NCBI GenBank assembly: GCA_021234155.1 | Contig: JAJEKV010000298.1 | Coordinates: 310,001-374,000, forward strand | Direction of reading: 5' to 3' | Length of the DNA stretch: 64,000 nucleotides | Origin: Isoetes taiwanensis | Lineage: Eukaryota > Streptophyta > Lycopodiopsida > Isoetales > Isoetaceae | Part shown: positions 7,615 to 32,060 of the stretch, piece by piece | How the letters are laid out: each line of letters opens with the position of its first letter | How positions within the stretch are numbered: position 1 is the stretch's first letter | The notes under the pieces: model-generated | What the model was told of the DNA's origin: nothing | The model's database searches: none | The model's input: only the letters and a program-made list of their open reading frames with translations | Made by a program: the position numbers and the translations under genes

Positions 7615-8690
7615 AATCTTTAAAGCCTCTGACAAAGGCAAAGATGGGGCCCTTTCTATCAGTGAGCTGAAATCTCTTGTTTTGAGTCTAGGAGTGTGTA
7701 CTCAGACAAATGTACCTGAAGATGATGAAGTCCAAGCCTGGTTGAGAGACTTTGATATTTCAAACAATGGATTGATTCAAAAGCAGGAATTCATAAATGG
7801 CATGTCAAAATGGATGAAGGCAGTAAAAGGTAAGTTGAACAGGTACCCCACTCTTGTACACAAGCCAGATTTTTGGCATAGCAGATCAGAGGTTAGTGAT
7901 CTGTAAATAAACCATGATTCCATATTTGATATTCTAATCTAGACATGGTTAACTTGGTGGGCAGGAAGCAGAGCACAATTTAAATATTACGTTACATGCG
8001 ATTCTGATGACAACAAAGAAGAAGATGAAGAGAAGAAACCAAAGGAGCGACCCACCAAGAGAGCAGCGATCACAAAGGCATCACTGCTCATTGTATGTGG
8101 AGCTGTGGTAGCAGGAATATTTTCAGATCCTTTGGTGGACACTGGATTCTATCACTAACTTCTCAACTGCTTCCAAAATTCCACCCTTTTTTGTAGCCTT
8201 TATAGCTACTCCACTGGCAACAAACTCAAGTGAGGCCATTTCCTCACTAATGTTTGCAAATTTCGGAAGAAGAAGAAAAATACATCCATTACATACTCTC
8301 AGGTATCTTTGCCTAAGATCTGCTTCTATTTAGTTATGCTAGTGCCCGTTTCGGTTCTAATCTTTGGTGTTTACAGATTTATGGTGCAGTAGCTCTAAAC
8401 AACACTCTATATCTTTGGATATTCTTAGCTGTAGTGGTGGCTCGTCATTTAGATTGCAACTTCTCCTCCTCAAGTGACAACCATTGCTATAGTGACTATT
8501 ATCATGGGGGCAATAGGAGGGTCTAGAACTAGTTTTCCGGTTTGCATAGGTCTAATAGCATTGGCCCTTTACCCACTTTCAATTGGGATGGTTGTTATCT
8601 TACCGCTGCTCTCTGCTCTCTGTTCTAGTGAGGAGAATGCGATCGGTGGGCCTTTGAATGGCGTTCAGATTGTGTGGCAATGGTAAGATT
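7615..8690 (+). pseudogene. NCL: NCL-type Na+/Ca2+ exchanger (EF-hand cation exchanger), C-terminal half, broken
   Basis: Three exons can be followed. Exon 7615-7829 encodes an EF-hand pair: a weak loop DKGKDGALSISE and a good loop DISNNGLIQKQE. Exon 7965-8302 encodes a charged linker, a membrane segment ending FSDPLVDT, then NFSTASKIPPFFVAFIATPLATNSSEAIS, the conserved exchanger alpha-repeat. Exon 8377-8650 encodes IYGAVALNNTLYLWIFLAVV and further membrane segments (ALALYPLSIGMVVIL). The order and motifs match plant NCL proteins, which exchange Na+ for Ca2+ in membranes. One-base frame changes occur after LVDT (about 8143) and near 8470, and no N-terminal membrane half was found upstream. 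A LINE lies just downstream. Most likely a pseudogene; assembly errors cannot be excluded. Confidence 0.8.
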
Positions 8691-9088
8691 TCTTGCAAGA
8701 CACATATTACGTGTTAACTTCGTCCTTGTTTGCATTTGAGAGCGGGTCTTCGTCATGCACAAATGCTCATTGATCAACAACTCCACTTCTCTAGTTGTTA
8801 AGCAAGTGGTCCTTGTGCTATATATTAATACCATTATCTGTTTTAAATGTACACTTGTGCTGATTTGTAGGATATATGTGAACAAAGGAGAAAGCCCAGT
8901 TGCCACGAAATTCAGCATTCTATGTACATCAATTCTTCGTCAAACAACAGAGAACTATACATTTCTTTCAACTAGTTAGTAGTTACACATCTATTCTCAT
9001 TAATTTGGATACACATTCTTTTGATAATAGAAAGAAGATCCAAGTTTGTTAATGCCTCAATGCGTCAAATCCACAGTGTGATTGTACA

Positions 9089-9106
9089 AGATGCTTATCT
9101 TATCTT
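9089..9106. repeat. Left target-site duplication of LINE C
   Basis: AGATGCTTATCTTATCTT occurs here and again at 10787-10804, directly after the poly(A) tail. This defines a LINE insertion made by target-primed reverse transcription. Confidence 0.92.
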
Positions 9107-10786
9107 TGTTTGGCTCTATTCCCTTGGAAGGTGCTTCCAGGTAATGTGTGTACTAAGCTGTTGGGTATTCCCTTTGGAGGGGATGTTTCCATGGGGAGGG
9201 TGTGGGATGAGATTTTGCAGGGGTTGCAGAAACACCTCAATTGGTGGAAGGGTAGCAAGTTGTCCATGGCAGGTAGGATCACTATTGCCAAGTCAGTACT
9301 TTGTAGCACTCATGTGTATCAAAGATCTGCGATGTTAGCCGTTGAGGGTAAGATACGGGCTTTGGATAAGATTGTTCGAAATTTTGTGTGGGGGGGGGAT
9401 GATGAAGGGGCGGTTGTTAAAGTGGCTTGGTGGAAGTGTCTCCGCCCGGGAGGATGGGGGCTTGGCCATTCGGATTTTGTTTGCATAGTAAGGTGTTGGT
9501 CTCTAAGTTTATTTGGAGCATTGCGAGGGATGGAGCATCTTCTCCAGTGCGGCACTATTGTGGCAATCTCTTAGCCATTGTGTGGCATTTGGAAAGTCGA
9601 TGCGTGCATGTAGAGTTGCCACAGGCTTTGTTGTATGGTCTAGGCCTTTCCCACATGCATCCCCTTTTCTCCGCGGGGGTGTTGCGGGCTTGGGATCACG
9701 TCGTGTGCTCTTCGGCTAGATTATGCCTCGGGTTTATCACCACTCTTCTCCTTTCTTGTGGGTTCCTCTACCCCCTAGCATTACTTGCCCTTAGGGCGCC
9801 TTGTGCATGCTTTCGGGCCTTGAGGCCCGTTGGAAGCGACTGCTGTGCTCACCTTGGAGGATTGGTATTGGGATGGTCAGCTAGCCGTGGGAATTCTTTC
9901 GAGCTTCGCTTTTCGCTGAAGGGCGATGGTAGGGCTATCACGGGAACAAGTGGCGGGGGAGTATTCGCTACACATACCTATAGTCCCTCGGGGTGATGTG
10001 GTGGTGCAGGTTTGGAAGGTTCATCGGATGTTGTATCTTCTTGTTTTGTGCGGTCTTGTTTAGGGTGTTGGCTATTCATGACACTCTCGCCCCGCCGGGC
10101 AAGTGGTCTCTGCGGCTTCGGGTTCTCGATGGCTTCGGTTTGGGCGTGGACATGGAGCTCACTTCCCCACCGAAGGTTGGTGCTTATACGTGGCGGTGGT
10201 GCACCGGCTATCGGGGTGAATGTCCTTGTGAGTCGGTTTAGGCGGGTGTGAGCCCTCTTTGCCCTTGTTGTGGCCTTCATCATTGAGGCGTGGAGCATTA
10301 TGCGGTTTTATGCCCTCACTTGCGGGTTGCACAGGATTGGGTCAGGGGCTCGTTTTTGGTGAGATTGAATAGCCAACAATTGCTGCTTCATGTATATCGG
10401 TGCTTGGGTAAAACGATGCGGCGACAAGCCTTGCATCTACGTGTGTGGCTTGGTTGGTGTGGTTGATTTGGAAGCCGGCGGTTGTGGATCTTCGGGGATT
10501 GACTGACTGCTGACCTCTCGATTCCCTCGACTTCGGGGTACAAGCTATTTCAAAGCTTTTTTGGTGTTCGGGATTAGTAGAGCGGAAGTTTTCCATTTGG
10601 CGGGACTTCTTGGGTGTGGTAGATGGTGATGGCGGTTTAATGCAATGATGGTAGAGTTGCGGTTGTTGTGGAGTGTCGAGGTATCACTTTGTCTCTTTGG
10701 GGGCGATTCTCCTTCCTCCTCACTTGCTTTGTAACATTATCATTCTTTTAATATATTCGACCACGTTCTTCAAAAAAAAAAAAAAA
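9107..10786 (+). mobile_element. 5'-truncated LINE C with poly(A) tail
   Basis: The insert is bounded by an 18-bp direct repeat and ends in a poly(A) run (about 10772-10786). Its 5' part reads as the C-terminal end of a LINE reverse transcriptase: LGIPFGGDVSMGRVWDEI, LNWWKGSKLSMAGRITIAKSVL and a VRNFVWGG segment. Around 10250-10330 it has a CPCC...H...C pattern like the zf-RVT zinc-binding domain. Frames change several times, so it is not functional. The last ~65 bases before poly(A) (CTTGCTTTGTAA...GTTCTTC) recur in the tiny insert at 54230-54296, showing one family with repeated activity. The perfect target duplications suggest a fairly recent insertion. Confidence 0.93.
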
Positions 10787-13543: not shown

Positions 13544-15113
13544 TGTGACGTATATTATATTGCCACGTCACCCGTACATGTCACGGATGACATGTACTTG
13601 GTGGTTGTAGTAGGTTGCACCTAGGGGGCAACTTTGAATATTGTGCATGTTAAATAAACATACACAATTAATAACCCCATGGGCCCCATTGCCAAATGGC
13701 TAAACCCCATTTGCCAATGTTCTAACCTAACCCTAAGGGTTTCTATATAAGGGTTCCCCCTTAAACCCTAAACCCTTCTTTCTTCCTTGCATTTTAGGGT
13801 TTCCATAGAGCTCCTTTCTCATTTTGCATTTAGGGTTCTCTTGCGCCATTTCGGCCAAGTGAAGACCCCATTTCGCCTTGCTCGGCTCTGCAAAGCCGTC
13901 TTTGCACAATAGATCATCGAGTACAGCCATCTTCAGCAAGATCAGAGACATGGATGCGTTCCGAGGAACCGGAGCGGGTCAAGGACCAGGTATCTAGTCA
14001 TTCTGTTGTGTAAAGCCGTCTTTGGGCTAAGCAGTGAGGTAGTTTAGCATATTCATTTAGCCATAGAGGCCTTATAGATCCCGAGATCATAAGCCCTAAC
14101 TAAGGAACCTAACTCTGTATTTAGGTAGATAGATTAAGATTATATTCTTCATTTCAAGTTCCGTGATGATGATGGTATTTCATTCGGTGACCTCCATGTA
14201 TTGGGAAGGGGGGTAGAGACCCTAGCAGCCTTGTAGAAGATGATCCTAGAATAGTATCATTAGTACCCAATTATTGCGGCCTGTACGCAGGAGCCCACCG
14301 GGTTGAAGGTGGAGGGGCCAGACCGGCAGAACAAGGAGGTATTTGTCCCAACACAGATCAGTCCCTCTGGTGTGTAAAGCCTACCAGGGACTCTAGTGGG
14401 CTAGGTCTAATGCCTTGTCACTGCATGTGGGCAAGGCATGGGCTCGACACCCGTGGAGTGATGCGTCACTCTCCGTTGGGTTCAAGTCGAATAAGGGCAG
14501 TGGCCCTCTAGCCACCTGTGTTAGAGCATGGAAGCCTCTGGAGGGAGAGTGACCTTCCTCTTGCCTCATCGGGGCTGAGGAGATGCAACTCAGTAGTAGC
14601 ACTTTTGGCTATGTACCCGGCAGGCTATGGTCCAGTCCCAAGACTTATCATCCCACTTTGCAAAGTGTGTACAGGAGGGGCGGATGGAGTGGACTACCCA
14701 ACAACCATGTTCCTTTGCCAGCCAAATCCATTGCCATGAATTCTGTCTGCAACGACTTCTGGAGACCCAGCTGTCAGTCGAACCCCTTTGAGTCAGAGCC
14801 CCGGGTAGGATTCCCTTGTTGTTATTGAACATACTAATGATGTTGTATATGTGATGATGATGATGATGATGTGCTCACCCTTCGAGGTGATCGTATTTAT
14901 ATACTGTTAGTTTGTGCTCATGTTTGTTTATTCACGCTTCCGCAGATAGGTCGACCTGATGGGAGTCGGGTCAATGACACATCCATTCTTCCCTTCTGGC
15001 TCATTCCACTGAGAGTGGGGTCAGGTGGATGGCCCTTGTCAGTGTAGCTGCCAGGGGGAATGCTCCTCCTTCGAATACGATGGTGCATCGTATAAGGAGT
15101 AGGGGACGTCACA
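13544..15113 (+). repeat. 5' LTR of gypsy copy A
   Basis: The 1570-bp LTR starts TGTGACGT and ends ACGTCACA, a perfect 8-bp terminal inverted repeat, and is followed one base later by the primer binding site. A TATA box (CTATATAAGG near 13743-13752) and telo-box motifs (AAACCCTAA) mark its internal promoter. The other copy in this window is inverted at 1-1560. Confidence 0.93.
13743..13752 (+). promoter_or_regulatory. LTR TATA box
   Basis: CTATATAAGG lies about 200 bases inside the LTR, followed by AAACCCTAAACCC telo-box motifs. In the inverted LTR the corresponding site (near 1303) is the weaker CTTTTATAG. It is the likely U3 promoter of the element. Confidence 0.6.
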
Positions 15114-15114
15114 G

Positions 15115-15126
15115 TGGTATCAGAGC
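15115..15126 (+). promoter_or_regulatory. Primer binding site, tRNA-Met type
   Basis: TGGTATCAGAGC begins two bases after the LTR end. It is the standard sequence complementary to the 3' end of plant initiator tRNA-Met used to prime minus-strand synthesis. It proves that the upstream repeat is a 5' LTR. Confidence 0.93.
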
Positions 15127-15329
15127 ATGATCTTGGCAGACCAAGATCGAGCACTGACCATTTTCCCATAGGACTAACAGTAGATTCAAGCCTTGGGAAA
15201 TAGCCATCCAAGCAAGAGCCTCGAAAATTGTGATTTTTTTTCCAATTTCTAGTGTAGTAAATAGGTTAATGCTAAGTTAGTAGTAAGTTAGCAGAAACCC
15301 AACCTAAAATGGTCAAAAATAGTTGACCC

Positions 15330-15393
15330 CTCACAGAGTGCGCCCAGACCCAATCGATTTGCAAACCAATTCGACCTTGGCGCACTGTGTGAG
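15330..15393. repeat. 64-bp palindromic repeat P1
   Basis: Outer arms CTCACAGAGTGCGCCCAG and CTGGCGCACTGTGTGAG type (here CTTGGCGC) pair with one mismatch and one bulge; the centre is a palindromic TTTGCAAA core flanked by AACCAATTCGACC. It is the first of five copies around the histone-like gene. Confidence 0.9.
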
Positions 15394-15536
15394 TGGTGGA
15401 CCCTTATTGACCTAGTAGATGTATAATTTAGCTAAACTAATGGTACAGTTCAGCTTATCTCCTTGATTCTAGCTAGTTTTGCATGTTATAACACTAAGAA
15501 ACCCCTTGTAAATTGAAAATTGGACCCAAGAGATGA

Positions 15537-15720: not shown

Positions 15721-15813
15721 AAAGTTAGGGTTCCTCATTTGTCCCCAGCGCCTTCGGAGAACAGCTAATCCCAGAAAACGATTTCTAGGGCTTCGATTTC
15801 TTCAAACAAAGAC

Positions 15814-17046
15814 ATGGCCCGCACCAAACAGAGAGCCGGATTACTGTGTCCCCTGGACATGTCAGCGCCCAAGAGAAAGCAGCTCGACAAAAGGCCCGAC
15901 GGGCTCAGGAGCGAGCCGAGTGGGATCACGAGGAGCAGAAGGCCCAACCTAACCCAGGTACCCAGGAGGAGGCCCCTGAGCGCCAGGAAGAGGAGCGGCC
16001 CCGCGACCTTGAGGAGGGGGGTGAAGAACTCATAGCGGAAGAAGCAGCAAAGTTACTGCAGAGGGAGCTCGAGAGAGAGCTCTTCCAGGACCTTAACAAG
16101 GAAGACAAGAAGGAGAAGAAGAGGAAGCGGGAGCACGAGGACGGAGTAGAGAGGAAGTCGAAGGAGGAGCGTCGCAGGGAGAAAGAGGAGCGGCGCAAGA
16201 GGATGGAAGAGAAGAAGCAAAAGAGGGAGGAGAAGAGGAGACGACGGGAGGAGCGGGAGAAGTTGAGGGCAGCAAAAGAAAAAGCTCCTGCGCTGCCAAA
16301 GGACACGAAGCACAAGATGAAGACGACTCCCGCCAAAGGAGTCACTATCCAGGAGCCAGACCCCGAGAAGCCTCCATCCTCATCTGACACTGAGTCAGAT
16401 GAGGGAACTAGGATGCCCGACCCAACTGAGGCCTCGGGACCCTCAAACACAGCGCGGGAGGAGGAGGATGTGGTGGCAAAGGCACCCCCGTACCCTAGGT
16501 GGCCGTCGCCAAAACACCCCAGTGACAGTACCAAGAAGCCCAAGCCGCAGAGGAAGTCGTATGTACTCAAGCATGAGCTTGAGTACAGAAAAAAGTTAAA
16601 AGAGTACACTTCGTACATGAAAATGTACGAAGAATACTCTAAGTATTATAACGAGCATAAGGTCACATTCGTCGAAGGAGGCCGACCGACTAAGAAGAAT
16701 ACTCTGAAGCCGCCACCCGAGAGACCTGCTCCACCAAAGAAACCACAGAAGAAAAGGGCGGACTCCAAATTTTCCAGAGCTGCTAGGGAGATCCGACATT
16801 TTCAGCAGAGCTATGGACTTGTCATCCCCAGAGCGCCCTTCGCGAGGCTAACACATGAGATTTTGCAAGAATTCGATAAGTCCAAGCGAGTCACGGACGA
16901 TATGTTGCTGGCGTTACAGGAGACGGTCGAGCAGCACCTAGTGCAACCACTTCGAAGACTCTGTTGCATGTGCTATGCATGCAAAAAGAGTAACTTATAT
17001 GCCAAAAGATATAAGGCTAGCCCAATACATAAAGGAGGCATATTAA
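15814..17046 (+). pseudogene. Histone H3-like protein with long charged insertion, encoded inside a gypsy element (two frame changes)
   Basis: The ATG at 15814 opens MARTKQRA, the H3 tail start, and further on reads APKRKQL, like the APRKQL of H3. The frame then changes into a long open frame (to about 16946) that is rich in Lys/Glu/Arg and probably forms coiled coils (about 16020-16310), followed by an acidic/proline segment and a Tyr-rich helix. From 16785 it shows an H3 fold: REIRHFQQSYGLVIP, APFARLTHEILQEF and [13 protein letters not shown] (alpha-N, alpha-1, alpha-2), with the same loop-1 length as H3. At about 16947 one extra base returns the frame to that of the [31 protein letters not shown], then TAA at 17044-17046. 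The total is about 410 residues against 135 for H3. IPRAPF recalls plant CENH3. The two frame changes compensate, so this copy is probably dead while an intact relative is expected. Poly(A) signals AATAAA lie at 17057 and 17070. Confidence 0.9.
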
Positions 17047-17189
17047 GACTGTATTAAATAAATTTTGTTAATAAATTTGTAATTTGGATGAGTTAATGTG
17101 TTTAATCAGGTGTAAATAGGATGTGTTATTACGTTCTGTACTTGGAATTAACAAATTTGGAGCAAAACCAAGTGTTTTTGGCCCCACCC

Positions 17190-17253
17190 CTCACAGAGTG
17201 CGCCCAGACCAATTCGGTTTGCAAACCAATTCGACCCTGGCGCACTGTGTGAG
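17190..17253. repeat. 64-bp palindromic repeat P3
   Basis: Near-perfect copy with the 12-bp core palindrome GGTTTGCAAACC and the outer CTCACAGAGTGCGCC / GGCGCACTGTGTGAG arms. Confidence 0.92.
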
Positions 17254-17393
17254 TGGTTGAGCATGGTTTGATGCCAAATCTTGTCCAAATGCAAAAAGTA
17301 AGTATACCATTCGACTCAGCTCACCTTAATTAGTAGGATTTGACCCCTAGTTTGTAGAAATTGGCCAACCCTAACTCAAATGGAGCCCCACCC

Positions 17394-17457
17394 CTCACAG
17401 AGTGCGCTCAGACCAATTCGGTTTGCAAACCATTTCGACCCTGGCGCACTGCGTGAG
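17394..17457. repeat. 64-bp palindromic repeat P4
   Basis: Copy starting 204 bases after P3. The ~140-bp spacers between copies are themselves similar (GTCCAAATG, GTAGGATT and TAGTTT motifs recur), so the whole 205-bp unit is tandemly repeated. Confidence 0.92.
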
Positions 17458-17598
17458 TGGTCGACCCCAAAACTAGACCAAAACTTGTCCAAATGAGGCA
17501 AGTAAGAGCTCAATCCGACCTATCTCGACGCGATATGTAGGATTCCATCTTTAGTTTCCATGTTTGGCATCATCCTTGACCCAAACAAGGCCCCACCC

Positions 17599-17662
17599 CT
17601 CACAGAGTGCGCCCAGACCAATTCGGTTTACAAACCGATTCGACCCTGGCGCACTGTGTGAG
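17599..17662. repeat. 64-bp palindromic repeat P5
   Basis: Copy starting 205 bases after P4, with core GGTTTACAAACC. It is the last copy before the second TATA module at 17825. Confidence 0.92.
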
Positions 17663-17824
17663 TGGTCACACTAAAATTGCCGTAGCTTGTCCATAGTTTC
17701 CCTAAATTAGGTGAAAGGGTCCCTAGAATGCATTCTTTAGCGTAGTTAGCGTGTGAATTGTATACTTAGATCTTAGAATCATAGATATTCCACAACTTGA
17801 AATTTCCCAAAATTATTGTTTTGC

Positions 17825-18426: not shown

Positions 18427-19935
18427 ATGGCAACCACTGTATTCAGGTGATGGTACAGCGCCACAGCTCATGTGGCCGAGGCTGACATCAAGTCCGTCTT
18501 CGCTGTCTTCCAGAAGGAGCTTGATGTGGAAGCCACCATCAACGCCACCCCCTTTTACCAAGACATTATATCTGAGTTCCATGCCAAGATAGGACCATCC
18601 TTGGTAGAACTCCCCCGTTGCATAAGATATTTTGCCCCCAGCATGGCCCTTAAGTCAGCTCTGCAGGACATCTCAAACATAGACAAGTACTTAGAGAACA
18701 AAGCAGTTCGCCTACCCAATTACATGTCTATCTCTGTCAATAGGAGGAGGTACTTTTCCTATATAGCAGCCATAGTTATTTTCCTATCTCTTCGAGGCCA
18801 AACCCAGATAGAAGAACCCTCAGTGCAGCCCTTAGAAGTTGAACCCATGGCCATGGCCGGCTATGGCAGCAGCAAAAGAGGAGCAGATGCGTCTCGAGTA
18901 CGAACAAGAGGGAGAAGAGGAGGAACACGGGTCGGATTCAGAAGACATCGACCTAGAACAGGAGAGGCAGCAACTCCAAAGCTTTGAAGAAGGACTCAGA
19001 GCAACAAGAAGAGCACTACCACTTGGGCAAGGAATAACAAGCTTGACCCCAGTGTTCATAGGAGGAGAAGCATACTTAAGCCTCCATGACATTAAAAATC
19101 TTCCAGAATGCAGAGGTAGGGGTTTCAGAGTGGATGAAATTCTGCATCTCCTACGGCAACAACCAGATCTCGACGACTTCATCGATCGAGAAATTCAAGA
19201 CTTCTCCATCAAAGATAAGGGAAGCTGTGACATACACGCGCTTAGACGTCATCGCATTATCGAGGCTTACATGTGCATCGACAAATGATGATCGGCGGAA
19301 TTGCCGGGCCGGAAGAAGAGTTCCTGGCAATCCAAGAGCACATGAGCATCAAGGGAAAGTCGACATCAGCACTCTTACCTAGCTCATCAACAACGGCACT
19401 AGGGCAGCATGGAGGCAGCATCAACCTGAGGAAATTAGTGCACCAGGACTTCAGAAAACTAGAGGAGGTGCAGCTTGACGAGTACGCGGGAAGACATAGG
19501 GCAACCTCGGCATCTGGTGAGGAAGCAGGGCATGATAAATCCCTCAGGTACTACCTTCCATTACTCCTAAACAGAAGAATAGCGGTTATATACCGCCAAT
19601 TCAGCCCACGGGGTGAAGAAGGGGTCTTTATGCTTATCGCCCTCTCAGGAATTGGAAATCATGCTCGATTTGCCCCAAACATCGACGATGCCATCCATAT
19701 CAAGAGAACGATAGCATTAAGTATTTTCGACTTCGCAATCCCCTACAGACGGCAGGGCAGGTTGGCAGTGACGGCAGCATATACTTCGGATAGGAGGATC
19801 GAGGACTTAATGACAACGCTCCAAGAAGGCACGGCCACAAACATCCTCAGGAACCTAGGGAGAACAATCGGCACGGCCCAAGTGAAGAAATTTTTAGAGG
19901 ACAACCCCGACTACTTGAAGAAATTCCAGGAATAA
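18427..19935 (+). pseudogene. Unidentified second gene of gypsy copy A, frameshifted (~490-500 residues)
   Basis: The ATG at 18427 opens MATTVFR, hits an in-frame TGA, then continues in the same frame (WYSATAHVAEADIKSVFAVF) to about 18830. Later parts lie in other frames: 18839-19290 (acidic EQEGEEEEH, then FRVDEILHLLRQQPDLDDFI) and 19273-19935 (MMIGGIAGPEEEF, LRYYLPLLLNRRIAVIYRQF, ending DNPDYLKKFQE). The smooth composition over the joined pieces suggests one former protein, mostly helical, with an acidic middle and a basic C-terminal third. I recognise no domain. It precedes gag, follows the H3-like gene on the same strand and has its own upstream palindrome-TATA module. It could be a second captured or virus-derived gene, or a divergent structural protein. 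Confidence 0.55.
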
Positions 19936-20107: not shown

Positions 20108-21502
20108 ATGTATGCAGCTAGAGTACCTAGAAATGTTGAACAACAAGGACATCATGACCAAGAGCGTACTCCACCAAGGCGTTTCCAGCCAAGAAACCCA
20201 CGCCAAGAGTTTGATGCAAGAATACCGAGGAGGAAGAGCTATCCGATTCGGGATCCGACATTCATGAAATAAGGGCATTGCTGGCAGTAGCAGCAACAGG
20301 AGGGCAAGATCAGAATGTGCCATTGCCAGAAACACCGGCCGACCGAACAGTGCAGCAAAGGAAGAGAAGCTGGAGAAGAAGATCCCCTAGCTCGGGTTCC
20401 TCCGACTCTAGTTCAGACTCTGATTTCGGATCGGAAGAGCAGGAGGAGAGACAGGACCAACGAGACGACCCAAACCGTGATAGGGGCAGGGCACAATATG
20501 ACTATCAGAAGAAGGTCGACTCAGCGCTTAGCAATGTCTAGAAAGCAAGAAAGCTCCAGCAGTTCTCAGGAGACACCAGATCTGGAATGGAAGCAGAAGC
20601 ATGGCTTGATGAAATGAGGGAATATGGTAACGCTTATAGCATGAAGGACAAGGACAAAGGCAGAGTAGCTACAGCCAACTTGAAGGGAGCAGCTAGGATT
20701 TGGTGGAAGGGCTATGCCAAAGCACATGGACTGAGCAGGGACAGTTGGAGGTTCAAAAAGCTTGCTAAGGCATTCAAGCGCCATTATGTACCAAGAGAGC
20801 ATAAGTGCCACATGATGCAGCAGTTTTGAAAGGCACGCAGTGGAGGGTTACATAGAAGGGTTGAATGAGGAGATCCGGAAACTAGTAAGAGCAATCAACC
20901 CTAGGACGGTGTCAGAAGCGGAATCCAAAGCAGTCAGCTTGCAAGGGACGGAACCCCAAGAGAATGCACCAAGGCAGCAGTATTACCATGACAAGGGGAA
21001 GGGCACGGGAAGCTATAGCCCAAGAGCGGCGAGCCCAGTAGCTAGCAAGCCTCAGTACAATGCTAATTACGGGAAGTAGGGCAATGCAAAATCTGGCAAG
21101 CAGGATAAGAAACATTTGACCTTCAAAGAGCAAGGAGGGGGATCCAACTATTCCAAGGCAGTGAGGCAGTTTTTGCAATCCATTCCCAAAGAGAAGAAGC
21201 AGGAGTGCATAGAGAAGCAGTTGTGCTTTAGGTGTTTCCAACCAAGGCATAGGACAAACAATTGCCCCTTGATGATGAACGTAGCATTAGCGGAGATGGG
21301 ATGGGAGACACCAACGGAAGCTGATGACGACGATGCACCGGACTATATTCATGGTAAGTGCCATATTTTTGCAGCCATTGATACGGAGAACGCAAAAAGC
21401 CAGTACCAAGTAATCTCCATAACGGGGAAAGCCAAGGAGAAATCCTTCATAGTCTTGATAGATACAGGGAGCACCCATAACTTCGCATCGCCAAGAATGG
21501 TA
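20108..21502 (+). pseudogene. gag (with zinc knuckle) and start of protease of gypsy copy A
   Basis: The ATG at 20108 opens a basic N-terminus (MYAARVPRNVEQQ). Frame changes at about 20270 and 20830 and a TAG at 21077 break it. The core gag domain includes EAWLDEMREYGNAY, LKGAARIWWKGYAK and FKRHYVPREH. A nucleic-acid-binding knuckle of the form CX2CX4HX4C (CFRCFQPRHRTNNC) follows near 21224-21268. The frame ends with the aspartic-protease signature VLIDTGSTHNF, interrupted by TAG at 21503-21505 and then continued without frame change into pol. Gag packages the element RNA, and the protease cuts the polyprotein. Confidence 0.85.
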
Positions 21503-21505
21503 TAG

Positions 21506-22577
21506 ACATTGAAACTTAAGCCCTTGAAGTCAAAGCCTAGACCAGTTGTGTTGGCTAGTGGAGCAATCAGGCATACAGCAGGAAAAAGAATTAACTTCAA
21601 CGTAGACTTGCCGGGAGTCAACGTAGCATTGGGAGCTGAAGTGATGAACATCGGAAAATATGATTTGATAATAGGAATGGAGTATCTCGGACCAGCAGGA
21701 GCCATCATTGATTGTGGCAAGCGTAAGGTGACTTTAACAATGCCGGAAGGCAAGATCATCGAGATAGCAGGTAAAGAAGTAACACCAATTATGCAATGCA
21801 TGTCGAGTCAGAAATTACTTAAGTGCATAAGGAAGGAGCAAGTGGCCTACATCTTCAGACTCCAAGCAGACCAGGAAGGGACGGAGGAAGAGAAAGAGGC
21901 CAAAGCATTGAAAAAGCTCCCAAAGCCTATAGCAAAGTTGATAAAGAAATTTCATGACTTGTTTCCTGATGAGATCAAGCAGCTTCCACCCTACAGAGGA
22001 GTCGAGTGTGAAATAGCACTTGAACCAAGGACTAAGCCAACTAGCAAGGCACCTTATAGAATGTCAACCGAAGAGTTGATGGAGTTGAAGAAGCAACTGC
22101 AAGAACTGCTAGACCTAGGGTTCATAAGACCTAGTGTCTCTCCTTTTGGAGTGTCTATCCTTTTTGTGAAGAAGAAGGATAGAAGCCTTAGGATGTGCAT
22201 TGACTACCGTCAATTAAATAAGCACACCATTAAGAATAAGTATGCCTTGCCTAGATCAGATGATCTCATGGACCAGTTGCAGGGAGCGAAGGTATTTTCT
22301 AAGATAGACTTGAGATCAGGTTATCACCAGATCAGGATCAAGGAAGAAGACATCCACAAGTCGGCTTTCAGAACGAGATATGGCCACTATGAGTTCACGG
22401 TGATGCCATTCGGTTTGTCCAATGCGCCAGCGGCTCTCATGAGGCTTATGAACGATGTATTCCACGAATTCTTAGATGCTTTCATCATAGTCTTCTTCGA
22501 CGACATCCTAGTTTACAACAAGTCTTTGGAGGAACATGCCCAACATTTGAGGAAGGTACTTGAAAGTTGCATTTAAT
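21506..22577 (+). pseudogene. Protease end and reverse transcriptase of gypsy copy A
   Basis: It continues in the frame of the protease after TAG. It contains the protease C-terminal half ([19 protein letters not shown]), the pre-RT linker ([21 protein letters not shown]) and RT blocks: [63 protein letters not shown] and [10 protein letters not shown], where the catalytic Asp pair is intact. The frame runs to the insertion point of the 3.9-kb element at 22580. This 355-residue stretch is the best preserved part of the polyprotein. Confidence 0.92.
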
Positions 22578-22734
22578 TAAAGTGGGACAAATCTTGAATT
22601 TTGGGACTCGGACTGAAAATGGGACTCATACTCAATTTTTTTTTTGAATTGAGTGCTAGAATAGAATTTTGTCTTAATAAAACAACAATAACATTTACAA
22701 ACAACAAACCGAGAAAAGAAGGGGAGTTTGAAGG

Positions 22735-22965
22735 GGGTCGGAGGGTGGGCAAGAGGCAACTAGAGAGGGGGAGGAGGATGGGCAAGAGGCAATTGGGGGA
22801 GGGGAGGGGGGATGGGGAAAGAGGCAAATCGGAGAGGGGAGGAGGATGGGATAGAGGCAACCGGAGAAAGGGAAGGAGGATGGGCAAAGAGGCAACCGGG
22901 AGGGGCAAGGAAAGGGGGAGGAGGATGGGCAAATGGGCAAATGGGAAGGAGAGAGAAAGGGCAAA
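22735..22965. repeat. GA-rich minisatellite
   Basis: About six imperfect ~35-bp units of the type GAGGAGGATGGGCAAGAGGC with AACCGGAGAGGGG spacers. All frames across it are low-complexity shadows. Confidence 0.8.
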
Positions 22966-23728
22966 GGGGGCAAAGATGGGCAACCTTTAATAATTATAAT
23001 CAATATAATTATAAATCAATAATATAATTAACAAATATAATTAACATTATTATAATTAATTAAAAAAAACAATATATATAATTATTAATCTAATAGGCTA
23101 GGCTAATTTCTCGACTAGTGGGGCGAGAAGCTCCCCACAAAACCATACTCCAAAAAAGCTACCAAGGAGAATTGCTTGTCTACCAGGGATATTTTTGCAA
23201 GACGGAGAATGGATGGGGGCTATCGGCTATGGCGGAAATTCTCCCTGAATGGCTATGGCGAGCGCTTTTCTTCCTGAACGGAGCAATTTCTTGCCCCATA
23301 AAACCTCCATCTCTAAGCATTGAACATGTGTGGCCGATTTTGTTCAGAATTTGAGCTTGTGCCATGGCTATGGCTAGGGCTATGATCGATTCTTAATCGC
23401 GCCAGCCCCTTTACTCATCATATATTGTCGATTCCATGGGCCTCGATCCTTAGACGAAAAAAAATAGGAAAATGGCCAAAGTTTAGAAAAACACCCGTCT
23501 TGCACCATCTGGAACAGGGGTCAAAAAGCTGTGAAGGGGGTTTGAAGTAAACTCTCAGGCATGTGCAAATCCGAGGGTTGGGAAGGACGCAAGACACGGT
23601 GTAGAAGATCAGAAAGCCGAATTTGGGATTTTCAAATCTCTTAGCAGTTAAACAGGTATGGCCGAAGCGCCCAGAAGCTTCTAGTTCTTGTGGTCAGAGA
23701 AGGGGCTTCGCCATCGTAGTTCTTGTGG

Positions 23729-24239
23729 TCAGAGAAGGGGCTCTGCCATCGAAATAGATTTACAAGTCCTGATTTCCTTAGAAGAATTCAAATCCATGTC
23801 TTCATTTTTGGGATTATACGAGCTTCCTAAAGAATGAGAGGGCAGAGAATCCACCAGGTTCTTGGGAGCAGTCCCTGGGTCTTCTATTCTAGATCCCTGG
23901 CTAGTGCTCTGATCATAAAAATTTGTTTTCGCTTTGGCTCCACGCAGGGCTCTAGCCGCTGTATCATATGCTTTGTGCTTTTGCAGCTTCCTCTGCGGTA
24001 TCAAATATTCCTAACCATACCCTGGTTTTTTTCCATGGATCTCTAATTTCTGCCGTGATATCTTCCAAGATGGCCTCTTCCTTACGCCCGTGACGAGATC
24101 CGCCTCCCACAGAGACGGTTTTGGGGCTTTGCTGACGCTTCTTAGCCATTGTGTAAAGGCGAGAAAAAAATGAGATGAAGGGTGCCGGAGTTGAAGGAAG
24201 TGAGAGAAGCCGAGGATCTTTGAAAAAGAAGCTTCTCAT
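23729..24239 (-). pseudogene. AP2/ERF transcription factor fragment captured in the MULE
   Basis: Minus-strand frames together show an AP2/ERF DNA-binding domain: [13 protein letters not shown] upstream, GVRKRP in one frame, then [20 protein letters not shown] and EEAA in another, then [18 protein letters not shown] after a further frame change. The WLG and RAYD/AA elements are the family hallmarks, and the [10 protein letters not shown] text resembles group VIII (EAR-type repressor) ERFs. At least two frame changes and a G-to-S-like disruption at RKRPSW break it. It lies inside the mobile element that interrupts gypsy pol, so it is a captured host fragment rather than a resident gene. Confidence 0.88.
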
Positions 24240-25254
24240 CCGGGCCGGATCTTTTTTTCATCCGGCGGATCTTTTTTCATCCCGCATTCTTTCATCCGCT
24301 TCTTCCTTCTTTCGTCCCTCTGCTCTACCAAATCCTTTGCTCGTCCGGATCGGGTGAGTTTGAAAACTAGTTTGAAAATCCAGACCATGGCTTCCGCTTC
24401 AAATAACAAAGGGAAAATAAAAAATTTGCGCCCTATGTCATTTTTTTATCTCTCTCCATAGCCGTGGAAGCTTTTTGGTTCTTGGTCGGCCCTGGGAGCT
24501 ATGCTATGGGAGCTTCTTCCAAGAAACAAAGAGTCCAAGTGGTACAAAGGAGTTTCGGCCTCAAAGGTATGTACCAAATTTTAAAATTCAAGCATGGGCG
24601 GAAAAAAAAGGGTATTAGAAAAAAAGGGGTAAAATAATACGTCGAAAAAGGAAGTGTAAAAAATAAATGCTAATAATATATAGGATTATATTTTGACGGT
24701 GTCCCCAATTTCTCTTTTTTATGTGTGTGCTACTATGTTCACACATTAAACATTATGTTGCCATGGTGCACGTTTTCTAGGCATATATTCTTATTCTAAG
24801 GTAAAAATTTAACTTTGCGAAGATCATGATATAATTTACACCTTGTTTAACCCATTTTGAAGGTTCAAGACACAAAATGGGGACAAGTACATATTAATAG
24901 GTCTAATGCATATTAATAGATTTAATGCATAGGTCTAATAGGCTCTCATAGGTTATAATGTGCATTATAGGTGCATATGTTGCTATTTACATGTGCATTA
25001 GGCATTACTCTTTTACATAGCTAAATATGAGCCCAATGGTCCCCCTTCATATAGCTATATGGTTCCATTAGAAAAGGGAGGGTCCATTGGATATGTGTCC
25101 ATTAGATAATACATGGAGATGGTCTATTTTTCATGGAAAATATGTAGGAAATTTATGGGAGGGTATTTTTTCATAGAAAATATATAGGATGTTTGAAGGT
25201 TATTCATTTTCAACCTTCTACGGACTCTCGAGCTTTGAAATTGCCTTTTTATTT

Positions 25255-25765
25255 CGAGTTTCGCCTTTTTCGACTCATGAAGCCTAAAAAGGCCCCTCAA
25301 ACTTGTACATTTTTTCGCTTTGGTTGCCTTTTTCATTTCGCAAGTCGAGAAAGGCCTTTTGACCCTAAAACTCCCGCGGTTTACGCTTTGAACCGCTTTT
25401 TTCGACTTCTGAAGTCGAGAAAGGCCTTCGATCCCTAAAACCCGTTTTGGCGATGAACCTTTTCGACTCAAGGAGTGAAAGGCCTTTCCCCCTAAAGCTT
25501 ATGTGCTTTTGAGCTGCCTCGCGAAGTCGAAAGGCCTTCACCCCCTAAAACTGCGTTTTTGAACCGCTTTTTCGACTGCATGAAGTCGAAACCGATCCCT
25601 TTAAACCTGCGTTTTTTTTGGACGCTTTTCTCGACTCGCTGAAGTCGAAAAGGCCTTCGAAAACCCCCTAAAACTTTGCTTTGAGTCTTGAGCCTTTCTC
25701 GACTCGCGAGTCGAGAAAGGCCTTCTAACCTGTGTTTTTCCCTCTGAGCTGCCTTTCTCATGCCT
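25255..25765. repeat. Array of eight palindromic hairpin units
   Basis: Eight units spaced 50-70 bases apart each contain a dyad of the type CCTTTCTCGACT - spacer - AGTCGAGAAAGG, followed by a CCCTAAAAC spacer. The unit at 25692-25721 is a perfect 30-bp palindrome with CTCGCGAG at its centre. The short minus-strand ORF across 25124-25471 is a shadow of this array. Confidence 0.85.
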
Positions 25766-26487
25766 GTATTTTCCAAAAATGGCCCTAAGAACTGTGTTTT
25801 ATTTTATTTTCTTGACTAATTTGATTTTGTCTCTTGCAGTCCTTATCTCGACCAGATAGTACATGCTTGGGAGCAATGAAAAGATCAGTTCATTGAAGAA
25901 AGGTGCCGAGAAGAGGGTGGTGACATCAGCTTGGACATACAAGCACCCTGGCCCATAAAGGAACTCCTCATACAAATTTCTATCGCCTCGCAAGTTGCTC
26001 CGTGACTAGGAGAGAGCTCCACGCGCCCTTTGCACTAGGTGGTTCATGTGTGAAGAGGGTGTAATCATTGTGCCCATACCACCACTATGGTCTCTTCACC
26101 CACTGTAATATATATTGTAATGAGCCCATTTATAAATATAAGGTATCTCAAAACTAGTATTTTTGGGTGATTAAGTAAATAATTTTTTAATTTTTGTTGG
26201 AATTTGTGATCTATTGTCTACCCACCTAAGAAAATAGAGCCAAAATGTTCAACTAAGAATCTTTTTCAATTAGAACTTTGGTTTCAAGTCAGTAATGAAA
26301 TTCCTATGTTTATGCGTTGCATTGTTCTTGTTCTCTACACGCTATCCAAGAAAACTCGAACAAAAGCTTGATGCACACTAATAGACAAAAATTCCACTAT
26401 GCGATTTTGGTCGAGGTGCTTCTTTTGTGTAAATTAACAGAGTTCCAAGAAAAAAGTGGGAATGGAATGAGTCCCACTTTTAATTAA

Positions 26488-28427
26488 ATACGGCTTTTGA
26501 GAAGTTGAGGAGGCATCAACTCTTTATGGCTATCTAAGTGTCACTTCGCAACGGAAAGAGTGGAGTACTTAGGGCATGTGATCACAGCAGAAGGCATCTC
26601 CACCACTCCCTCGCCAAGATCGGCAGTTGATTGATTGGCCCTTAACCAAGAACACACATAAAGTAAGGAGCTTCCTCGGTCTAGCGTGCTATTATAGAAG
26701 GTTCGTCAAGAACTTTGCCAAGGTAGCAGCCATTGACGGACCTCACCAAAGTGGAAGATAAAAGATTGGGCAATTCATTGGCAAAAAAGCAAGGCCCGTA
26801 AAGCTTTTGACACATTGAAATAAGCATTGACGACGGGCGCCAGTTTTGATCTTGCCAGACCCGGCCAAAGATATGACGTTAGTAGAATAGCGACAGGTGC
26901 AGTCCTCATGCAGGAGGAAAGGGTAGTGGCCTATGATTCGAAGAAAATGAACGATGCGGAGCATCGCTACACAACACATGATCAGGAGCTTCTGGCTATA
27001 GTAATAGCTTTGAGAATTTGGAGGCACTATTTATTAGGAAGAAGATTCCAGCTAGATACGGATCATCAAAGCCTTCAATACATATTTACACAACCACTCC
27101 TCAATTTGAGGCAAAGGAGGTGGATGGAATTCCTTGAAGAATATGACTTCGAGGTAACTTATAAGCTAGGCAAGCTCAATGTGGTTGCAGATGCTCTTTC
27201 TAGGAAGTCTTTGGCCACGAGAACGCATTGTAATGCAATTTCGACGCTCACGAGCGAGTTTGGCAAGAAGATTGAAGAAAGCTTGCCAACAGATCCCGAC
27301 TTTAAAGAAGTTTGGGCAAGTCTTTGCAAGGAAGCCAGGACCGACAAGGAAAGAGAAATGTTCAGGCACTATAAGAAGGAGAATAACTTGCTATACCATA
27401 AAAACAAATTGTGTGTACCCGAATCTTCAGAAGTTAGGAAGCTAATCCTACATGATACATACAATAGTTCCATAGCAGGACATGCATGGTTTATGAAGAC
27501 ATACTTCAAAATTAGAAGCACTTACTTCTGGCCCGGCATGAAGAAGGAGATAGCAAGGTATATTCGTGAGTGCCAAATATGCCAGCAGACAAAGGCGGAA
27601 CAACTACGAATTCCAGGTGCCTTGGAACCATTGCCTATGCCAAACGTTAAGTGGGAGGTAATAAGTATGGACTTTATAACAGGACTCCCAAGAACAGCAA
27701 GGGACAAAGATGCCCTGATGGTGGTAGTAGATAAGTTGTCAAAGATGGCACACTTTGTGCCGCGGCAGACAACAGATATTTTGATTAGACACGGCCGCTC
27801 TATTTGTTGAGGAGATTTTCGACTCCACCAAGCATGCCGAGGGAGATAATTTCAGATAGGGACCGCAAATTCATGAGTGCCTTTTTGGCGGGACCTATTC
27901 ACCACCATGCATTTAAGCTTTCGATGAGCACGCATATCATCCCCCAAACGACATGGTCAGACGGAGAGGACCTAATATGATCATCAAAGATATGTGAAGA
28001 AGCTATGTTTGGAACAAGCAATCTAAGTGGGATGATTTCATCCACTTAGTAGAGTTCACAGACAACAAGTGCCAAAAGCGGTGAGTCGCCGCAGATGAGT
28101 CCCTTTGTGATCAATTACGGGTACCAATGTCTTACCCCGGATACTTGGCACAATCCCGTGTCCAAGGTAGAAGTCTCTCAGCAAATGCTTTCGGAGATGC
28201 AGCAGTTGGTGGAGGAAGTGAGAGGATACCTCCTAGCAGTAAGAAGTAGGCAGAAGAGCATCGCCGACAAGCATAGAACAGTAAGGGAATTTCAGGTGGG
28301 AGACAACATATGGTTGAAGATCAAGATGAAGCAGGCCAAGCTCCGCATCGGCAATTGCAAGAAGCTTGCTCCAAGATGGGCTGGACCTTTCAGGATAACC
28401 AAAAGAGTAGGTGCCCAAGCCTACAAG
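26488..28427 (+). pseudogene. RT connection, RNase H and integrase of gypsy copy A
   Basis: After the insertion the text resumes with KLRRHQLFMA, ERVEYLGHVITAEGIS and further frame-broken RT connection. An open frame at 26827-27809 carries RNase H (GAVLMQEERVVAYDSKKMND, TTHDQELLAI, DTDHQSLQYIF, VVADALSRK) and integrase (HDTYNSSIAGH ... CQICQQTKAEQ zinc-binding part, then VISMDFITGLPR with the first catalytic Asp). Later catalytic text (after 27800) is frame-shifted. Integrase C-terminal sequence (MQQLVEEVRGYLLA, FQVGDNIWLKIK, GPFRITKRVGAQAYK) ends abruptly at 28427, where the next LTR element begins. Confidence 0.88.
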
Positions 28428-28976
28428 TGTTTGGGGTTTGGGTTCGGGAACTCCTGCAAGACAGCCCTCTGTGAGGACCCTTGGATCAAACAGGAGAATC
28501 CGGGAGCTGTGTCACGCGGGATTTGCAAAAGAAACAAAGGAAAAGGAAAAGAGAGAAAACAAAAGGCGACAATGAGAACACAATGATGGGAACAAAACTC
28601 TTTGATATCAATGATGATACATGAGCTCTCGTAATAGAGAGAAACAAAATGGAGACAAGACCAAAAACTCGTCTAAAAATCGAATGCTAGCTCTACTCCT
28701 ATATATAGTACAATGGCCTGGAAGGAGGCCTGATTTGCAAGAATGTTGGCGGTGCCTCTTGAAATGCCTGAAATCACGCTGATGCTGATGGTCCGTCACT
28801 TGTCTGTTCTCGGGCCCGTGGCCTTCTGCGTGGTCTGCTGCTTGGTCTGCTGCTTGGTCTTCTGCTGGGCTTTGGACGACTGACCTGCACCTGACTGTGG
28901 ATCCTTGCTCTTGACCTGGTCCGTCGTGTGCATGAATAGTCCTGCACTGTGACGCATAGACTCACACTCCCCACCA
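28428..28976 (-). repeat. Putative LTR of a minus-strand retroelement inserted in gypsy integrase
   Basis: On the minus strand a polypurine-like GGTGGGGAG precedes TGTGAGTC at 28976, and the stretch ends CCCCAAACA at 28428, exactly where the gypsy integrase text is cut. A TATA box (CTATATATAGG near 28700) lies in the middle. TGT...ACA ends, the TATA box and the tract support a 549-bp 3' LTR. The partner LTR was not found, so the call is tentative. Confidence 0.5.
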
Positions 28977-31655
28977 AACGACACTCAGGGAGGAGAAAAG
29001 GGGGAAAAGTCTCTGAAGGTGGAAACCCAGCAACTTGAAAGTCATCCTGGCGTGTATGAGGGCGGTTGCCAGAGTGATAATTTGCAATAAGGTCTTGTCG
29101 GGCTTGGAGAGCTTCAGGAGTGTGGAGACCAAGTGCTGGATGAGCGTCAATGAGAAACCCAGAGTGCACCATTTCTTCAAGGGCACGGTGTGCTTCAGCA
29201 CAGTACAAACTGGCATTCCATGAGAAGGCAAAATGGAGGTCAAGGTACTGACGCTTGCATTCGAGTTGCAATAATAGATAGGACGCTGTCTGGCAAGTGA
29301 ACTCAGCAGAAAGCACTTTAAGGCATCACAAAAACCTGCTTGGCGGTGAACAGATGGATCCGGGGAAGTGGTAGCATGTTCCAAAAAGAGATCAAGGCCA
29401 GAGACAGCGTGTGTGGGTGTCTCCCAACCTCGTGCATTAGGGATGTAGATCCAATTTTTGGTGTGGTCTAAGGTAGCGCCATTCTCCCAATTAGAGCGTC
29501 GAACAAAATGCGGATCCCATCGAAGATCAGTGGAGATCTGAGGAGGTGTCCACCCAGCGTGGCCGTCCAGGACTTTAGTCCAAAAGGGAAGACGCCAATC
29601 CGAGGTGAGATACCGGGGGCGTGGTGGTGCACTCAACGAAGCATATGGAGATTGAGCCATGCCCGTGGGCATGGGGCTGCTGGGCCGCTCCCCCGAATTC
29701 ACTAACAAGGTTCCAGATCAAGAGCTCGGCACCACCGGGTCCCAATCAGAACTGAGAGCATGGTATAGACCGGAGGATTAACCCAACCCCGGGTATAGTC
29801 TTGTTGCCCGTATGGGCACGCAGCTGATTGTAGCCACCCGTGTGCCGCGATATAAATTTGTGCAAATGGAAGATCCTCAGGATGGGCTAAATTCTTCCGT
29901 ACTTGTTCCAGCGTCTCAGCTTGCTATAGAGGTAGGTGATGAGCAAGCTCAGGCATGTATTCAATGCTTAGAGTGTTGGACCGAGCAGGATCCTGTAAAT
30001 ACGGGTTGTTTTCTAATAACAACCAGTGAGCATGAGGGTTGCCTTGAAAAATTCGATGGGCCTCATCTCGGAATTTATCTTGTGTATCAGCCAGGTAAAA
30101 ATCATGAAAAATATAAGCCATAAGTTGAACAACATGGAAGATCACCAAATCTGAATCCTCGCAGTGGATTTGATCAAAGACCAATAGGGTGCAGAGTAAG
30201 CCTTTTGTCTTCAATGGAGAGGTCCGGCCAGATCCTGAGAAAATCCTCGCTGCCCAGGGACTGCGCATTAAGCTTGCCATTTGCCGAATACCACTTGAGA
30301 AGAAAAAGATGGCGGCGAGCAACCACATAATATAGATAACTGGAAGGAGTAAAGAAGTCCGTAGGAAGGCGGAGAGCAAGATCAAGTTATACCTCATGTT
30401 GACTCTGGGCTTCTTCCACAGATTGAACAGCTTGCTGGAGTTGATGCTCCAAGTCTTGGAGCTGATTATCTTTGTCAGCCAGAAGGCGTGACTGATCACG
30501 GAACTTCTTGTGAGAGAGCGTGGCCTAAGACGATGAAGGCACTTGAGTGGAGCTTTGAAGCCGAAGAGTGGCAATTTCTGTATCATCTATGATCTTCTGC
30601 TTCTGGGCTTCAAGGAGTTGAGCCTGGAGAGGCGTGATCTGACTGTGCAGCGTGGAAAGTTGGTCTTCGAGAGAAGTGATGCGCACATTTCGCTCACCAA
30701 GGTCTTGGAGCTGGTTGTTATAATTCTGAGAAAGCTCCGTGTACATGGTTTGGAGATCGGCAAGGAGTTTATCTTTGTCTACTAGGAGTTTGTCCTTATC
30801 CTTGTTGGTAGCCAATAGTTCCTAAATAGCCGATCAGAATCGAGCCTCGCTGATCGGGCCGAAAGCGCTAGTCCGTTCTCGTTTCGGGCCTTTGAGAGAT
30901 TCACGGGCCTGTAAAAGAGCCTCGTGCTTCTGTTGAAGTTTTTCTTCAAGGGATTGAACTTCCTTGGTGGCAGCTTGGAGATCCCTGTGAACCGCTTCCG
31001 TGGCCTCCATGTAAGCTTGAATGCCATTCATGAAGGTTTCTTGCGAGTCCTGAAGCTTAAGGACAGCTGCTTGTACATCCTGCTGATATTGATGCAGGGC
31101 TTGGCGAGAAGGTGAAGGTGCGGGGCCCTGTTAATATTAGACCTGCGGTGACGCCCGAGAAACATGATGAGAATTTGAGCGCGTGGTTTCCGATGAGGAA
31201 GAGGAGACAGAAATAGGTTTTTCTTGATTTTGAGCGTGACCAGGAGAAGGATGAGGGCATGAAGTTTCGGCATGAAGATTTTGGTCAATGGGATTTGAGG
31301 GCGCTTTGGTGGATGCTTGAGACGTGGTGTTTGGGCAAGTGGGTGAACCCTGACTGGGGAGAGGGAGACAATGACGGAGGATGGCCTGCAAATGAGCACC
31401 TATGCTAGATTCAAGGCCCGAAGAAGGGGCTGCTCGGATGCGATCAATTTCATGAAGGAGGCGGAGAAACAAAATTTGAGGCCAATCAATGGAATGCGTG
31501 GAGTGGATGGCCAGGACAACAATGTTGAAAAACTGCTTATTGATGTGGGTATTCTTGATGGAATACCCATAGAACTTTCGCCACAGAAATTTGACAAAAA
31601 TATCATGGGATTTGGCAATGTTCGTGAGACGATGAGTGTTGGCCTGATAACCCAC
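28977..31655 (-). mobile_element. Internal region of an unclassified minus-strand retroelement
   Basis: Minus-strand frames give a Lys/Gln/Leu-rich coiled coil (30815-30525: KDKLLVDKDKLLADLQTMYT, SLEDQLSTLHSQI), preceded by a Ser/Pro/Thr-rich stretch (31400-31137) and an N-terminal part HDIFVKFLWRKFYGYS (31620-31560). It is followed by broken frames (FDQIHCEDSDLVIFHVVQL; PQISTDLRWDPHFVRRSNW) down to the putative LTR. I recognise no RT or integrase here. The domain order (folded part, low-complexity stretch, coiled coil, C-terminal part) looks like a non-autonomous element that codes only for a gag-like protein. It joins the RT of gypsy copy B at about 31655. Confidence 0.5.
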
Positions 31656-32060
31656 TGGAATATGGCCGGAGCATTACATACACCAAAGGGCATCACTTGA
31701 TAAGCGTAAGTTCCCCAAATAGTCACAAATGCTGTCTTCTCCCTATCTTCTGGTCTAATCAATACTTGGTTATACCCCGAGAATCCATCCATAAATGAAT
31801 AAACCTCTTGACCCCCTATAGCATCTAACACCTCATTTGTGAAGGGAATAGGTAAGTGGTCTTTTCAAGTAGCATCATTCAGCTTTCGATAATCAACACA
31901 TATACGTATTTTCAAGTTTTTCTTATAAACACACACGATGGGTGATACCCATTCACTATAATCCACAGGATAGATAAAGACAACCTTAGTCTACAAGGCT
32001 TTTGCACTACATATTTAGCATTAGCATAGAGCTCAATCTTATGCATGCATAATGACGGGT
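31656..32060 (-). pseudogene. Reverse transcriptase fragment of gypsy copy B
   Basis: The minus strand reads VSPIVCVYKKNLKIRICVDY, RKLNDAT, LDAIGGQEVYSFMDGFSGYN, EKTAFVTIWGTYAYQVMPFG and VCNAPAIFQ, then joins foreign sequence. These are RT blocks 2-4; the YVDD-type catalytic block is missing through truncation. Confidence 0.88.

Follow-up and report, generated by a model that had tools for sequence, protein, structure and literature searches.

In the lycophyte Isoetes taiwanensis, a high-copy lineage of Ty3/gypsy chromoviruses carries a histone H3 gene as a conserved open reading frame (ORF1) between its primer-binding site and gag, as a first-pass annotation made from the sequence alone had proposed. 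The H3 fold of ORF1 is under purifying selection both in three types of element, designated A, B, and C, and in the lineage represented in the window, by which we mean the whole 64,000-nucleotide stretch of DNA analyzed. The preservation of this element-borne H3 suggests an influence of the element on its own chromatin.

The window copy of the element is laid out as follows.

13544..15113, plus strand: 5′ LTR, TGTGACG...CGTCACA, read from the sequence
15115..15126, plus strand: primer-binding site TGGTATCAGAGC, read from the sequence
15325-15400, 17185-17262, 17390-17465, and 17590-17670: four copies of a palindromic hairpin
15814..15840, plus strand: ORF1 start with the codons of the H3 N-terminal tail (MARTKQ...), in a frame that differs from that of the linker in this copy
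15840..16769, plus strand: charged linker of ORF1, about 300 residues, in the open frame 15789-17054
16770..16952, plus strand: H3 fold of ORF1, alpha-N to alpha-2 (segment matching PF00125 by itself at E = 1.7e-10)
16942..17046, plus strand: H3 fold of ORF1, alpha-3 with the stop codon, here shifted to another frame
18451..19935, plus strand: remains of ORF2, spread over three frames (homology to the type A to C ORF2 shown only for 19246-19932)
20542..21076, plus strand: remains of gag (Retrotrans_gag match at 20542-20826; DNA similarity to gag of type A to C loci)
21080..22573, plus strand: protease and reverse transcriptase (RVP_2 matched weakly, under the cut-off; RVT_1 matched at E = 6.4e-30)
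26824..28500, plus strand: remains of RNase H and integrase (69% DNA identity over 1517 columns to positions 8322-9826 of locus L017)

The 5′ LTR at 13544 contains a block conserved in the LTRs of type A to C loci, and the primer-binding site TGGTATCAGAGC is presumably of the initiator tRNA-Met type; no 3′ LTR of the element was found within the 64-kb window. The Retrotrans_gag match at 20542 to 20826 (E = 6.7e-5) scored 23.5 bits, slightly under the cut-off of 24.1. The pol region is split by an interruption of about 4.2 kb (22577 to 26823), and the L017 segment to which the RNase H and integrase remains align contains both domains by Pfam. A G-rich repeat with a spacing of about 33 bases lies inside the interruption, at 22732 to 22900. 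Two other elements left traces in the window: the LTR of a second related element lies inverted at positions 1 to 1528 (minus strand; 83% identity to the 5′ LTR at 13544), its interior being expected outside the window, and a minus-strand frame at 31400 to 31864 resembles, by eye, the reverse transcriptase of another LTR element.

The ATG at 15814 starts MARTKQ, as had been noted, and the annotation's reading of the charged frame ending in REIRHFQ...LLALQE...LV as an H3 fold was borne out by profile search: residues 308 to 403 of the frame at 15789 to 17054 matched the Pfam Histone family (E = 1.6e-12), and the same frame matched solved H3 chains in the PDB (E from 3.7e-9). The last helix does lie in another frame, with its stop at 17044 to 17046, but where a single shift had been described the copy has two breaks, the MARTKQ codons and the last helix both falling outside the linker frame. 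Because ORF1 is broken twice, the window alone could not establish one protein. An AlphaFold model of positions 16683 to 17054, computed with H3 relatives aligned (mean pLDDT, 53.8; predicted helices at 29-43, 50-67, and 72-103), was given no evidential weight.

We searched the I. taiwanensis genome (1,658,258,908 bases in 1110 contigs) for further copies. With positions 16700 to 17050 as the DNA query, the best 40 of 590 loose candidates were scored and were 77 to 100% identical, the 100% match being the window itself; 12 other copies of the window lineage (L036 to L047) were read. Their N terminus was exactly MARTKQTAR in 7 of the 12 and carried one or two changes in 4, and it was not found in L040. 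Position 9 was K in 2 of these 11 tails and I in 9. Of the canonical N-terminal tail ARTKQTARKSTGGK, only residues 1 to 8 are kept in the window lineage, and no ARKS stretch around K27 was seen by eye. Most of the copies read were broken; in L043, however, a single frame runs from the tail through the linker into the fold, and in L037 the linker and the whole fold are joined. At the protein level, 143 of the 150 best-scored matches to a 60-amino-acid query beginning at the M of MARTKQTAR started at residue 1 (counted from the table), and the 150 best-scored places for a 151-amino-acid linker-and-fold query were 74 to 100% identical, one of them being the query itself. Intact copies, which the annotation had left to be sought, do exist: at 18 loci, tail and fold matches fell in one stop-free frame of 393 to 489 amino acids, as deduced from match coordinates (same frame length, starts a multiple of three apart). 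The fold of the window lineage is also followed by ORF2. At least 46 of 150 ORF2 matches, the window's included, lie 1.8 to 4.1 kb downstream on the same strand, 45 of these 46 pairs being less than 3 kb apart; the number is a lower bound, since pairing was done by eye between lists of best places only.

Two further observations concern the window lineage. A palindromic hairpin of about 75 bases (CTCACAGAGTGCGCC...GGCGCACTGTGTGAG) stands both before and after ORF1; its window copies fold far better than shuffled sequences (z = −3.7 to −6.8), and it recurs in L035 to L044, L046, and L047, L045 being the only other window-lineage locus read in which it was not found. In the type A to C loci, no such hairpin was found at E ≤ 1e-5. 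The charged linker of L037 (1508-2491, minus strand) gave a subthreshold match to the acidic region of CAF-1 p150 (E = 0.027), which probably reflects composition only.

A genome search with PF00125, in which the best 150 of 8705 loose candidates were scored, revealed that the window lineage is not the only one with an element-borne H3. Fifteen of the 150 matches begin at profile position 2 and resemble ordinary host H3, the canonical tail being present in all eight ordinary host loci read (L001 to L008); the other 135 begin later. From these 135 we fetched 20 loci, mostly chosen for long open frames, which fall into three types by their start: A (MPRFKLT...), B (ME..KQVY...), and C (MANTKSAP...). 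All three have an N-terminal domain of about 330 residues followed by a near-canonical H3 fold, in which 75 to 81 of 92 residues equal those of host H3 at 19 loci and, in L027, where the fold is cut, 74 of 84. The frame ends where the fold ends at 18 of the 20 loci, L023 continuing past it and L027 stopping within it; the N-terminal domain is in the same frame at 18 of the 20, although its start is missing in L022, and only its end is present in L027 and L028. Neither an ARTKQ start nor a canonical tail is present in types A to C. The fold reached profile E values of about 1e-41 in these types and 1e-24 in L037; types A to C, L036, L037, L042, and the window frame all scored above the PF00125 cut-off, with H3 chains as the best PDB matches. 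A chance match to the H3 fold is excluded by these E values together with the 150 places at 74 to 100% identity. The A to C N-terminal domain itself was not found in other proteins (8000 candidates sharing most words; best 120 of 4704 matches); four of those 120 matches, ranks one, two, and four among them, were read, and each is a protein in which the ordinary H3 domain is repeated. Against the PDB, this domain gave one match, taken as noise (E = 0.28), and the window linker had no detectable match to it. The element is present in at least hundreds of copies (135 plus 150 places, although the two lists may overlap).

The carrier is a Ty3/gypsy chromovirus, since its pol domains, a chromodomain, and LTR pairs are present. 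It has the order gag-protease-reverse transcriptase-RNase H-integrase, LTRs, a primer-binding site, and a chromodomain at the C terminus of the integrase. Reverse transcriptase, RNase H, integrase, and SH3_Tf2-1 were matched by Pfam, and the gag has a CCHC knuckle (weak Pfam matches). The chromodomain PF00385 was matched in L033 (E = 4e-8) and a YLVKWK-type motif was seen in four of five downstream pieces read; no Chromo match was obtained for the piece from L029. Three of six elements tried had LTR pairs of useful length, with identities of 96.5% (L009), 90.7% (L014), and 93.4% (L017), the others yielding a 97-bp piece (L020), simple repeats only (L016), or nothing (L026). Downstream of the H3 ORF and on the same strand, 19 of the 20 type A to C loci have ORF2 (all but L017) and 19 have gag-pol (all but L021); the primer-binding motif of the window copy lies upstream in 12 of the 20, far upstream in L020. 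In L017 (3777-8094), the H3 ORF is kept, ORF2 is undetectable, and gag-pol comes directly next. The annotation had allowed that a host H3 gene might merely be flanked by elements by chance; we rejected this on the fixed same-strand context of ORF2 and gag-pol.

ORF2, the second extra ORF of the carrier, encodes about 450 amino acids and is 44 to 49% identical between types (L009, L014, L020, L022, L025, L026, and L027). It had no match in the PDB and only two in Pfam, both taken as noise (E = 0.1 and 0.21), and its remains in the window had no Pfam match. The window ORF2 is nevertheless homologous to that of types A to C (blastp to L020, E = 1e-10), which ties the window lineage and types A to C together. 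One database protein, P0121, from an ENA contig, is a relative of ORF2; its nearest place in the Isoetes genome is only 62% identical, and it is therefore probably a protein of another organism.

Whether the captured gene had been H3 or CENH3 was left undecided by the annotation. A tree was built from 148 rows, 79 of them different, over 92 columns, with a single CENH3 sequence; in it, types A, B, and C formed one clade (99/99) within canonical H3, which points to one capture of ordinary H3. The window lineage, with five rows of which one (L042) is half out of frame, formed a long branch, and a topology joining it to types A to C was not rejected (p-AU = 0.136). The window-lineage gene may go back to the same capture as that of types A to C, to a second capture, or to CENH3. 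By eye, MPRFKLT and MANTKSA each resemble MARTKQT at four of seven positions, and a PATGG-like stretch is retained ahead of KPHRFRPG in type A; this weak signal suggests that ORF1 of types A to C may derive from an H3 with a tail interrupted by an insertion. Like CENH3 and other H3 variants, ORF1 has a divergent N-terminal part ahead of the H3 fold, and the window fold shares REIRHFQ with what we take to be the Arabidopsis CENH3 sequence. Unlike CENH3, ORF1 is a multicopy retroelement gene, and loop 1 of the window fold aligns to H3 without an insertion. The tree, with its single CENH3 row, did not join CENH3 and the window lineage.

Within types, fold dN/dS of ORF1 was 0.038 in A (28 pairs), 0.020 in B (21 pairs), and 0.008 in C (one pair), values that are too low by an amount not quantified because the sample was chosen by fold score; between types, 78 of 86 pairs were saturated at synonymous sites. 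Constraint is looser in the globular N-terminal part, with within-type values of 0.131 for A, 0.078 for B, and 0.118 for C. Looking independently of the fold, we scored 130 matches to the type A N-terminal domain, of which 80 had no internal stop and 39 of these lay in open frames of 430 or more amino acids, long enough to hold the fold. For the window lineage, 13 copies including the window, chosen by DNA similarity, gave a fold dN/dS of 0.059 over 68 pairs, 10 more pairs being saturated (all 78 pairs, pN = 0.062 versus pS = 0.387), compared with 0.130 for the stretch before the fold (78 pairs) and 0.341 for the tail and charged linker (12 pairs only); these ratios are rough because synonymous divergence differs between stretches.

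We see about an even chance that ORF1 is a host-derived H3 that acts as a nucleosomal replacement H3 on the element's chromatin, its translation, nucleosome entry, and chromatin role being what we infer. An ancestor of this chromovirus lineage would have captured a host H3 and retained it as the element's first gene. The ORF1 protein would pair with host H4 and join nucleosomes in place of the usual H3, from which its N-terminal half differs greatly. The domain of about 330 residues occupies the position of most of the tail in types A to C; the window lineage retains the first tail residues, including K4, at the N terminus, followed by the charged linker of about 300 residues. K9 and K27 of H3 are sites of silencing marks. 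With somewhat less confidence, short of an even chance, we propose that element-made H3 builds nucleosomes on the element's own DNA whose tails cannot be marked in the usual way, the payoff being chromatin that would be hard to mark for silencing; it may also guide the chromodomain integrase, possibly serving in addition as its landing site or tether. Counting for replacement H3 are the profile matches of the fold, its near-host sequence in types A to C, the intact frames with tail and fold, the fixed place ahead of ORF2 and gag-pol, and the purifying selection. The role assigned to the tail change is argued from silence, and an N-terminal domain of about 330 residues, to our knowledge unusual in a nucleosomal H3, counts against replacement H3, as do the broken state of most window-lineage copies read and the underestimated dN/dS of the type A to C sample. 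Among 21 residues that we take to represent the H3-H3′ bundle and the DNA contacts, all 21 are kept in a type B fold and 15 in L037. The window-lineage fold has lost R63, K64, K79, F84, R129, and R131, which makes its fit in the nucleosome less sure. Retention of the H3-H3′ bundle favors mixing with host histones, to judge from the residues kept, whereas Medusavirus histones vary there, perhaps to avoid host histones (PMC11500106). By eye, the carrier chromodomain keeps the second cage residue alone when set against HP1 and so resembles group II, for which PMC2832683 describes the partner as unknown (see also PMC12786077). The element-made H3 is a candidate partner.

As an alternative, an integration tether without a silencing role, in which ORF1 would direct the pre-integration complex to assembling chromatin via H3-H4 pairing, with the chromodomain integrase as partner, is in our judgment unlikely. 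It fits the group II-like chromodomain and its unnamed partner, but an H3 partner is not required, as we know of no group II chromoviruses in general that carry an H3. We also think it rather improbable that ORF1 is a histone mimic working outside nucleosomes, titrating H3 chaperones, H3K4 readers, or H3 methyltransferases through the tail (window lineage) or an H4-bound fold. The persistence of MARTKQTAR and the many tail matches from residue 1 are what a decoy would predict, but it is types A to C, without an ARTKQ start, that hold the fold most strictly, down to DNA-contact residues that a decoy does not need. More doubtful still is packaging, by which the histone fold and a basic linker would condense element RNA or cDNA inside the virus-like particle: the linker is strongly charged and ORF1 adjoins gag, but that gag already has its own CCHC knuckle, and condensing RNA needs no near-invariant H3-H3′ and H4 faces. 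Passive capture, as functionless host H3 cargo or a chance-flanked host gene, has a very slight probability and is already contradicted: many copies are broken, the window's included, and transient gene capture is known for LTR elements (PMC7264820), but dN/dS is far under 1 although synonymous divergence is largely saturated, many frames are stop-free, and the position of the gene is fixed both in the type A to C loci and, by the same-strand ORF2, in the window lineage.

Replacement H3 is our favored reading. Histone H3 is a central point of transposon silencing in plants. A high-copy retroelement with a selected H3 of its own makes it testable whether a parasite acts directly on nucleosomes, and this large family is a source of numerous natural H3 variants in which the fold is constrained and the tail radically changed. 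If the reading is true, a selfish element writes its own histone into chromatin.

Chromoviruses and LTR elements with extra genes are already known; a histone gene in a retrotransposon was not found in the literature searched. In agreement with the annotation, which knew of no described plant LTR element with an H3 gene, we found no retrotransposon-encoded histone in the open-access literature, among the best-ranked matches of longer result lists. The word "histone" is absent from the main texts of two Isoetes genome papers (one being PMC8566536), from a review of additional ORFs in plants (PMC7264820), and from a study of ORF-capturing LTR elements in bdelloids.

The element shares with plant Ty3/gypsy chromoviruses the same gag, protease, reverse transcriptase, RNase H, integrase, SH3_Tf2-1, C-terminal chromodomain, and tRNA-iMet primer-binding site; unlike them, it has two extra ORFs ahead of gag, the first being a histone H3. 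Tat/Ogre-type elements also have an ORF before gag, together with a non-chromovirus reverse transcriptase lineage and no chromodomain; membership in that group was rejected because the carrier has a chromodomain. As with orchid Gypsy elements, which carry an AlkB-type m6A demethylase as an additional ORF (PMC9289625; review, PMC7264820), a host-type domain was acquired as an extra sense ORF, but here the extra gene is a core histone and is sited before gag. As in giant viruses such as Medusavirus (PMC11500106), a core histone is encoded by a mobile or viral genome. We rejected assignment to the viral histones of large DNA viruses, the carrier being an LTR retroelement. Unlike Medusavirus, as described in the same paper, the element encodes a single histone that is near the host sequence and keeps the H3-H3′ bundle.
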